Below, one piece after another: positions 33,698-35,364 of a DNA stretch of 64,000 nt. A model generated the notes under the pieces. The model had not been told where the DNA came from, searched no databases, and saw only the letters and a list, made by a program, of their open reading frames with translations. This DNA is from Streptomyces sp. CG 926 (GTDB lineage Bacteria; Actinomycetota; Actinomycetes; Streptomycetales; Streptomycetaceae): the NCBI RefSeq assembly GCF_003148825.1, contig NZ_QGGZ01000015.1, positions 62,001 through 126,000 of the forward strand, read 5' to 3'. Positions within the stretch are counted from its first letter, which is position 1. Each line of letters begins with the position of its first letter. The translations under genes were made by a program, and so were the position numbers.

Positions 33698-33863
33698 GAG
33701 TCGCCGTCACCGGTGCCACCGGCCAACGCGGGCACCAGCGTGGTGCGGGCCCTGGCAGCCGACCGGATGGTCAGCGAGGTGCGTGGTGTCGCCCGCCGGC
33801 TGCCGGACCTCCATTGCCCCTGCTCGATGCGGGCCGGGCCCGACACGATCCGGAAGAGACGGC
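33685..33863 (+). pseudogene. 5' remnant of an SDR-family (NAD-dependent epimerase) gene
   Basis: From the GTG at 33685 the sequence encodes IRVAVTGATG, the Rossmann motif of extended SDR proteins. It then continues one frame over as AGTSVVRALAADRMVSEVRG and VARRLPDL before stopping near the inverted-repeat element at 33864. Only about 55 codons of a gene normally over 300 codons remain, with a frameshift. The element borders the remnant. Confidence 0.55.
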
Positions 33864-34028
33864 CTAGTGCCGTGGCCGGAAAGGTTCGCCGGGTTGCGGC
33901 GTCCGGTGCGGTGCATCGCAAGGCGGAGGGCCACGGCTCGTACCGGACGTACTTGCGTGGTCCAACAACGCAGCGAGGTGCCGTGCCGGGCGTCGCGACC
34001 CGGTGAACCTTGCCGGTCACGGCACTAG
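33864..34028. mobile_element. MITE-like inverted-repeat element
   Basis: A 165-bp element bounded on both sides by CTAG. Its ends are inverted copies: CTAGTGCCGTGGCCGG on the left and, read in reverse complement, CTAGTGCCGTGACCGG on the right. The repeat continues inwards for about 56 bases with mostly transition differences, so the transcript would fold into a long hairpin with G-U pairs. CTAG ends fit TA-duplicating IS630/Tc1-type elements. It has no coding capacity, so it would be moved in trans. The right end lies on the stop codon of the next gene. Confidence 0.75.
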
Positions 34029-35059
34029 GTGGGCAGGGGGGTGCGCAGGGCCGAGCGACCCTGGCTCCACTCGCTGCGGATGTGCGCGGCCAGACGGTCC
34101 TCCAGGAGCACGGTCGCGGCGCAACCGAACGCGACGTCCGCTTCGAGGTGCGGCTCGTCCGCCAGCAGCCCGCCGATGACCTCATGACGTACGACCTGCT
34201 CGTGGACGGCGTCGGCCTCCACGTGCTCGGCGTAGAAGTGCTCGGCCGCCGGGCCCGCCCCACACCTGCGCATGGCCTTGGCCAGCCGTCGCGAGCCGGG
34301 CGACGACGTCACCTCCACGCACGCGAAGTGTCCGACCAGCGCCCCGCGCAGGGCCCGGTGGAGCCCGAGGAACGACATCAGGTTGACGGTGGCGAGCAGG
34401 GGCGCCGGTGCTTGGTCCAGGTAGCGGCCGTACGCCGTGTCCAGGCCTAGGTCGTCCATTAGGTCGGCGAAGAGGCGGGCATGGATCCGCTCGGGGTTCC
34501 CGGCGCCGAATTCGTCGTACTCGATGGCGACCATCGCCGCCTTGGCCCGGCCGCCGAGCCGCGGGATCACCCAGGCGTGGGGGTCGGCCTCCTTCAGGTG
34601 ATACAGGGAGCGCAGGGCCGCGTACTCGCGCAGCTGCCACAGCTCGCCCTCGGTCTCCAGGTGGTGGCTCAAGCTGCCGCTCAGGTCCACGGGTTCGACG
34701 AGGAGGGGGCCGAACGCCTCTGCCACGGTCCCGGGGGTATCCGCCGTCTCCGACCGCAGCGCGTGGCCGAACCGGTCCTCCAGGGCGCGGCGCAGCCGCA
34801 GCAGGTCCGGATCCCATTCCAGGGCCTCGTCCACGCCCGCGAAACCGCGATAGTGCAGTTCGTACAGCAGGTAGAGGGCGAGCTGGAGGTCCTCGCCCCA
34901 CGGGTCGGCCTTGAGGAGCGCCGCGGTGGTGTGGGCGGGGGGCCGGCCGCCGCGCAGGGCGTCCACCACCGCGCGCGACAGCGGCCCGCGCCCTTCGACC
35001 AGCACGGGAGCGGGGGCGGCCCCGGCGGCGGGGACGGCGGTGCGGGTGGGTGCGGTCAT
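34025..35059 (-). CDS. Iron-containing redox enzyme family protein (haem-oxygenase-like fold)
   Basis: A 344-residue protein of the haem-oxygenase-like diiron group. Helical core motifs are ALYLLYELHYRGFAGVD near residue 60 (E-x-x-H metal-ligand type), MVAIEYDEFGAGNPERIHA near 190 (E-x-x-x-D-E ... H) and FYAEHVEADAVHEQVV near 290 (E-x-x-x-D-x-x-H). Related diiron oxygenases act on fatty acids or amino acids, but the substrate here is unknown. Its ATG overlaps the CDGSH gene stop (ATGA). Its own stop, TAG, lies in the CTAG end of the inverted-repeat element. Confidence 0.85.
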   Translation of the reverse strand: MTAPTRTAVPAAGAAPAPVLVEGRGPLSRAVVDALRGGRPPAHTTAALLKADPWGEDLQLALYLLYELHYRGFAGVDEALEWDPDLLRLRRALEDRFGHALRSETADTPGTVAEAFGPLLVEPVDLSGSLSHHLETEGELWQLREYAALRSLYHLKEADPHAWVIPRLGGRAKAAMVAIEYDEFGAGNPERIHARLFADLMDDLGLDTAYGRYLDQAPAPLLATVNLMSFLGLHRALRGALVGHFACVEVTSSPGSRRLAKAMRRCGAGPAAEHFYAEHVEADAVHEQVVRHEVIGGLLADEPHLEADVAFGCAATVLLEDRLAAHIRSEWSQGRSALRTPLPT

Positions 35060-35364
35060 GGCTCGTTCCTGTCCTCGGGTGCCGGGGTCGCGCGCTCGCG
35101 GGGGCGGTGGCTGGTGTCGCACCAGGGGTACGTACGGCTGCGGCGGCAGGTGCACACGGCGACCATGAACCGGTCCGACCGGGCGGTCGTCCCGTCCTCC
35201 AGGACGATCTCGACCGGGCCCTCGACCAGGACCGGGCCGCAGCGGTCCACGGACCCGGAGCGGTCCACGGCCACGCGCCGGGGGCGCCGGGCACGGGGGG
35301 CCCGTCCGACGGGAGCCTGCGGGACCCGCCCGGGTTCAGAAGTGCCTTCAGAGGGACTGCGCAC
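35056..35364 (-). CDS. CDGSH iron-sulfur domain protein
   Basis: A 102-residue protein ending in a CDGSH-type [2Fe-2S] domain: CTCRRSRTYPWCDTSH supplies three Cys and one His. The N-terminal 40 residues are basic and Pro-rich. A strand segment (GPVLVEGPVEIVLEDGT) precedes the cluster motif, as in actinobacterial CDGSH proteins. It overlaps the methyltransferase gene by 17 bases and the redox enzyme gene by 4, so the three are one translationally coupled operon. It could pass electrons to the diiron enzyme. Confidence 0.9.
   Translation of the reverse strand: MRSPSEGTSEPGRVPQAPVGRAPRARRPRRVAVDRSGSVDRCGPVLVEGPVEIVLEDGTTARSDRFMVAVCTCRRSRTYPWCDTSHRPRERATPAPEDRNEP

Follow-up and report, generated by a model that had tools for sequence, protein, structure and literature searches.

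A Streptomyces mini-transposon that probably pairs a conserved hairpin core with exchangeable IS630- or IS5-type ends

A MITE is generally taken to be a shortened version of a single transposon, and BOX, RUP, ERIC, and Correia are small structured bacterial repeats, short and interspersed, that are able to fold as RNA. The target of IS630 is reportedly TA, with a preference for TA within CTAG, as Tenzen and Ohtsubo (1991) state in their title. BOX and RUP are mentioned in PMC3049150. MITEPsy1 of Pseudomonas syringae, according to an excerpt of its description, is a 100-nt MITE which inserts after CTAG or YTAA and is tentatively assigned to IS5 (PMC3189936). Judging by titles and abstract openings among the matches listed, in a literature search with subscription journals mostly outside its scope, no paper on the element analyzed here was found.

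The element lies in a 64,000-nt stretch of the Streptomyces sp. CG 926 genome, referred to as the window. An earlier note on this sequence had pointed to a 165-bp near-palindrome bounded by CTAG, and this was recovered at positions 33864 to 34028. The locus contains the following features.

33830 to 33867, + strand: solo right end of a second MITE family (IS5-type ends), the remainder of the copy being missing; the start at ~33830 was set by eye against locus L007.
33864 to 34028, + strand (the strand of the conserved hairpin): full MITE of 165 bp with IS630-type ends, from CTAG to CTAG.
33864 to 33894, + strand: left IS630-type terminal repeat, resembling the ends of the IS630-family units L152 and L329; its CTAG at 33864 is common to the MITE and the remnant on its left.
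33893 to 34000, + strand: conserved core hairpin, scoring 109.9 bits with model R1 (minus strand, 23.4 bits), in whose underlying alignment the window's own core is one row.
33998 to 34028, - strand: right IS630-type terminal repeat, resembling the ends of L152 and L329.
34025 to 34028, - strand: CTAG junction with the TAG stop of a haem-oxygenase-like gene.
34025 to 35155, - strand: frame of a haem-oxygenase-like iron enzyme (Haem_oxygenas_2, PF14518, E 4e-57).

Folding of positions 33850 to 34040 yielded -142.5 kcal/mol, compared to -89.5 ± 4.5 kcal/mol for 200 shuffled sequences (z -11.8). By strand, the element itself folded to -133.3 kcal/mol on the + strand and to -98.1 kcal/mol on the strand of the haem-oxygenase transcript. 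The outer 56 nt of its arms hold 11 mismatches, 9 transitions and 2 transversions. All nine transitions are G.U on the + strand and none is A.C, which agrees with the earlier reading of mostly transitional mismatches that keep G-U pairing. The right CTAG indeed contains the TAG stop of the haem-oxygenase-like gene, as had been noted. A truncated SDR gene, placed by the earlier note at the left end, was not confirmed: the single frame tried (33713-33865, 51 aa) had no Pfam match at E 0.01. The left end adjoins the remnant of an IS5-type MITE, of which positions 33848-33867 (C15:95848-95867) are an exact fit to the end pattern of the second family. Because the two elements share one CTAG, we infer that the IS5-ended copy was inserted first and that the IS630-ended copy then entered its regenerated CTAG. 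Among the orthologues of the haem-oxygenase gene in the relatives found, none offered an empty site with both flanks for the window copy, the sequence past the gene end being too divergent to join the two. A homologue in genome G012 ends in TAG without the element, by our own reading of the sequence.

The genome of Streptomyces sp. CG 926 (G000) harbors six full copies including that of the window, at 95 to 100% identity (95 to 98% for the other five). They are located in unrelated flanks, which bears out the earlier reading of a MITE-like element; the element is short and multicopy and carries terminal inverted repeats. A DNA search of this genome returned 54 matches, with strands and pieces counted separately. 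Many of them span only positions 33 to 134 of the element, and most of those inspected were elements of similar length with ends reading CTAGGCCGTCTCTTYCGGATC. In other species the same core is found between further ends, e.g., CTAAGGGCTGTCCCG, CTAGGGGGTTTCGTTTGG, and CTAGGGCGTGTCTT. All 13 scored candidates from G012 were full copies at 90 to 91%, and the end pattern (up to 2 mismatches) matched 226 times in this genome versus 55 times for the reversed control pattern. Matches to the element also occur in the Streptomyces plasmid records NZ_CP108509.1, NZ_CP108679.1, and NZ_CP108040.1; phage records were without a match. A scan of viral contigs with the A-end (IS630-type) pattern gave a single match, L150, which was taken as chance after its surroundings had been read by eye.

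The fetched copies are a chosen sample, taken by best score and heavily from some genomes, rather than all copies. Out of 174 distinct copies, 30 with ends scored below 40 were excluded when ends and stops were counted; since several of these show visible CTAA-type ends, the kept set leans to CTAG. The commonest lengths among the 144 copies with placed ends were 168 (69 copies), 165 (24), and 169 (16). Flanks were unrelated, with a mean identity of 0.31 over 904 same-genome pairs and one pair at 0.925. We also observed very short copies in which the ends are kept and most of the core is gone, at L072:1499-1552 (G013) and, in the CG 926 genome, at C1:932070-932142 and C9:134422-134488. At L006:1501-1830 (C14 of the same genome), an IS630-ended copy is followed directly by an IS5-ended copy, with a common junction.

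The TA duplication expected by the earlier note was found, 110 of the 144 copies having TA on each side. For 98 of these 110 the bases on both flanks conform to C-TA/TA-G, a count which leans to CTAG because the end finder rewards that motif. A cruder finder without this reward, applied to the outer 8 nt of 159 copies, assigned CTAG to 59, CTAA to 29, another TA to 10, and none to 61. A neighbor's stop codon is supplied by 72 of 127 testable copies, 6 of which serve both neighbors (17 of the 144 copies are without a testable junction). By genome, stop-supplying copies amounted to 19 of 28 in CG 926, 15 of 20 in G012, and 2 of 16 in G090. The coincidence seen at the window copy is common, not special.

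For a comparison with other CTAG sites, the 288 junctions of the 144 copies were reduced by 62 without CTA and 5 with flanks shorter than 230 nt to 221, and a codon score trained on 137 long frames was applied to each junction flank. Non-coding scores were obtained for 103 of the 221 flanks. Coding frames entering a junction were distributed over the three phases as 84:4:9, with 84 in phase with its stop, compared to 19:5:3 at other CTAG sites. Counting open frames only, the junction was used as a stop in 78 of 221 flanks versus 18 of 127 at other CTAG sites (p 2e-5), the latter being taken from the same loci, where some may be ends of other elements. Orientation relative to the gene ending at the element was unbiased (left, 43/111; right, 35/110), a result that does not favor a function in host 3' UTRs. 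In deposited annotation, an MBL-fold gene of Streptomyces sp. ADI95-16 ends exactly in CTAG, and the stop coincidence is annotated in one of seven annotated plasmid stretches (10 fetched), whose gene table is incomplete.

An IS5-ended copy supplies the stop of a gene in the CG 926 genome that we take to be sdhB. Of the 128 genomes that gave a match, CG 926 included, the best-scoring relatives supplied 29 loci, which were inspected at the sdhB-like stop. In none of them was the element located directly there, and the stops were TAG in 13, TGA in 15, and TAA in 1. An empty site at the end of this gene is provided by G070 and G063, in which the alignment runs through the joined site (75 and 72%, respectively).

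An IS630-type transposase with matching ends, which the earlier note had suggested looking for, was detected in other species (L152 and L329) and not in the CG 926 genome, whose 46 contigs matched neither DDE_3 nor, at E 1e-60, the L152 transposase. The L152 unit (G013) is 1739 bp long; its ends match, and its IS630 transposase occupies two frames (HTH_29 and HTH_32; DDE_3). Both ends of the G012 unit L329 match at 30/31. Across 30 loci of L152-type transposases, a set which includes L152's own locus, an end match of at least 24/31 was found at 29 within the fetched flanks, and paired ends at a fitting distance were found at 12. At the 12 loci that carry other DDE_3 genes, no end match reached 21/31. 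The ends of the window element match IS630-family transposons, and thus the guess of IS630 was right. An annotated IS630 transposase on a Streptomyces antimycoticus plasmid has ends matching at 26/31 and 27/31 with a GNAT gene in between; the GNAT acetyltransferase is a passenger inside the IS630 unit L360:1417-3205. Another unit, L151:872-1795 (G024:C62), is 923 bp long and has IS630-type ends and a LysE-family gene, with no transposase seen; it is possibly a non-autonomous cargo carrier.

The second family of ends leads to IS5 units, which we presume to be the IS427-like group. L119, an IS5-family unit on a Streptomyces albidoflavus plasmid, carries DUF4096 and DDE_Tnp_1 pieces. Its left end is identical over 21 nt to the end of the second family, and its right end shows 2 differences within those 21 nt. 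A relative, L154, resides in the CG 926 genome and has the ends CTAGGCCGTTTCCTTCGGATCA and CTGGGCCGTTTCCTTCGGATCA. These ends of the second family had suggested IS5 as the sole helper family, which was ruled out once the A-type ends proved to be IS630. Two further observations concern the IS5 units: L119:2501-3405 (NZ_CP108380.1) lies within an apparent CRISPR array, the repeats of which were read by eye, and L156:93-1594 (C10 of CG 926) is another IS5-family unit with other ends and a core element directly after it.

The inner ~107 nt of the element, the core, is common to IS630-ended MITEs and to MITEs with IS5-type ends. A covariance model built from 24 cores detected it in 105 of the 121 Streptomyces genomes searched (E 1e-4), with stricter search filters that lose weak matches. 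As up to 32 candidates were scored per genome, high per-genome counts are lower bounds. Loci L076, L079, and L085, from another family of the order, reached 97, 100, and 89 bits, respectively, as rows of the model's own alignment. No gathering score was attained in Rfam 15, where the best score was 29.5 bits versus the 75 required (microRNA model MIR898), and five other loci had no match at E 0.1. The core was not found inside IS630 units: 31 loci, at many of which one end alone was located, held one core (L314), beyond the paired end. Nor was it found inside IS5 units, where 32 loci held one core (L137), outside the unit; the core matches in L156 and L157 also fall outside the units. An interior derived from the autonomous element, which is usual for MITEs and not required of all, was not seen at the 31 IS630 loci.

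The consensus fold of the core amounts to -41.1 kcal/mol on the + strand versus -11.6 kcal/mol on the minus strand, and + folds better than - in all 24 core sequences. Changes on both sides occur in 17 of 30 pairs, with 96.1% of cells paired (553 Watson-Crick, 136 G.U, 11 A.C, and 17 other). Not one of 500 shuffles attained any of the five covariation measures, a comparison that leans in favor of the structure because the alignment tested had itself supplied that structure. Mismatches in the core arms of the 144 copies comprise 786 G.U, 6 A.C, and 236 transversions, the G.U count being inflated by fixed wobble positions inherited from one ancestor. In the outer arms (131 of the 144 copies), 186 G.U, 69 A.C, and 80 transversions were counted; G.U was ahead in 73 copies and A.C in 35, with 23 ties, so the strand bias is weaker outside the core than within. 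When each genome and end class was represented by a single copy, whole arms gave 424 G.U against 25 A.C, and G.U was ahead in 61 of 61.

Transversions apart, nearly all core-arm mismatches are G.U on one strand, which points to selection on the hairpin of that strand; a strand-biased C-to-T process could be an alternative source of G.U. The earlier suggestion of an RNA hairpin under selection therefore stands for the core, which looks selected by covariation and strand bias, and extends with less force to the outer arms. Both lines of evidence favor RNA as what the core would act through, and RNA is most likely the selected molecule.

On a tree of 135 different cores, for which a looser end-score cut of 36 was applied, end labels clustered strongly: they needed 17 changes, whereas shuffled labels needed 71.6 on average. 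For the IS630 label there are 4 changes, 2 of them forced by the starred (strong) branches, on a poorly resolved tree in which 84 of 132 inner branches are open.

We consider it probable, at roughly 0.8, that the element is a two-module non-autonomous mini-transposon in which exchangeable IS630- or IS5-type ends surround an older hairpin core under one-strand selection. The outer ~31 nt on each side would be recognized by an IS630-family transposase, which would insert at TA, mostly within CTAG, and duplicate the TA; mobilization would depend on IS630 or IS5 helpers with like ends. CTAG would be rebuilt at both ends, and a gene with a C-TAG stop would keep it; ends that begin with A would leave TAA instead of TAG. 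Since each end of an insertion carries CTAG (or CTAA), stops would survive and new landing sites would arise. Reuse of this kind is seen in the CTAG shared with the remnant at 33864 and in the IS630-then-second-family pair at C14. In the GC-rich CG 926 genome, CTAG often lies at stop codons and insertions elsewhere would probably be purged, and for these two reasons we propose that copies accumulate at gene 3' ends. As for the ~107 nt in the middle, they would be an older unit that forms a one-strand hairpin. Selection on that strand, most likely acting on RNA, would have preserved it, and an exchange of ends would have carried it between IS630-type ends and several IS5-like types. More tentatively, and at somewhat less than even odds, the core may be a structured RNA encoded by the element, without a counterpart in Rfam, whose range covers Streptomyces and related genera. 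It would survive by being packaged anew between ends that belong to unrelated transposase families, and it, rather than those ends, would be the lasting unit of inheritance.

The ends match IS630 elements, and some copies (e.g., L072 and C1:932070-932142) bear these ends but lack most of the core, as would be expected if the element were an ordinary MITE that arose by internal deletion of an IS630 element. Its palindrome would then have been kept by its deletion origin and by template-switch correction, and the RNA reading would be illusory, given that hairpin-templated correction can mimic compensatory change. Such correction would, however, erase asymmetric internal loops, whereas those of the core are conserved in sequence; moreover, the wobbles are strand-biased, and the core is absent inside the units of the 31 IS630 and 32 IS5 loci yet present in IS5-ended elements too. 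We therefore regard this origin as unlikely. A similarly low probability is given to a bidirectional terminator or 3'-end stabilizer that hosts have retained at gene ends, with transposition as past history. The hairpin is very stable, and an enrichment at 3' ends is evident from 97 forward- versus 21 reverse-coding flanks, compared to 27 to 18 at other CTAG sites (p 0.004), but target choice and purging would give the same enrichment. Orientation is unbiased, a terminator does not need conserved internal loops, and the haem-oxygenase transcript would read the strand with the weaker fold. The T-run that follows the hairpin of an intrinsic terminator is generally missing: within the 8 nt past the right end, no more than one T occurs in 97 of 144 copies, and 4 T occur in 2 copies.

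A selected molecule in the form of single-stranded DNA of one strand, serving as a fold-back substrate or a host-protein site, would explain the strand bias in place of RNA. G.T pairs fold in DNA as well, and sequence data do not separate the two. IS5 transposition is a cut-and-paste process through double-strand breaks. The same applies to IS630 transposition, according to an excerpt of a study on ISY100 (PMC2170065), which argues against a single-stranded DNA substrate, and we consider this reading improbable.

The preferred reading, that of two exchangeable modules, places a conserved, probably RNA-level core between the ends of two unrelated transposase families with a common target. If this is true, the selfish or useful part would be the non-coding interior, flanked by exchangeable ends. 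It would also imply a safe landing rule: since insertion into CTAG leaves TAG or TAA, elements could enter stop codons with genes unbroken.

Compared to known systems, the element resembles IS630/Tc1-mariner transposons and IS630-derived MITEs in its TA target, mostly in CTAG, in its matching ends, and in a helper with HTH and DDE_3 domains. It differs from IS630-derived MITEs in that its core is located outside the IS630 units searched and is common to IS5-ended elements. The likeness to IS5 family MITEs consists of the TA in CTAG and of the ends of the second family, which match IS5 units with DUF4096 and DDE_Tnp_1, whereas the window element itself has IS630-type ends. For MITEPsy1, a 4-nt duplication is given, and a second end type or a conserved core is not mentioned in the excerpted source (PMC3189936). 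Unlike BOX, RUP, ERIC, and Correia, the element described here combines one conserved core with the ends of unrelated transposase families.
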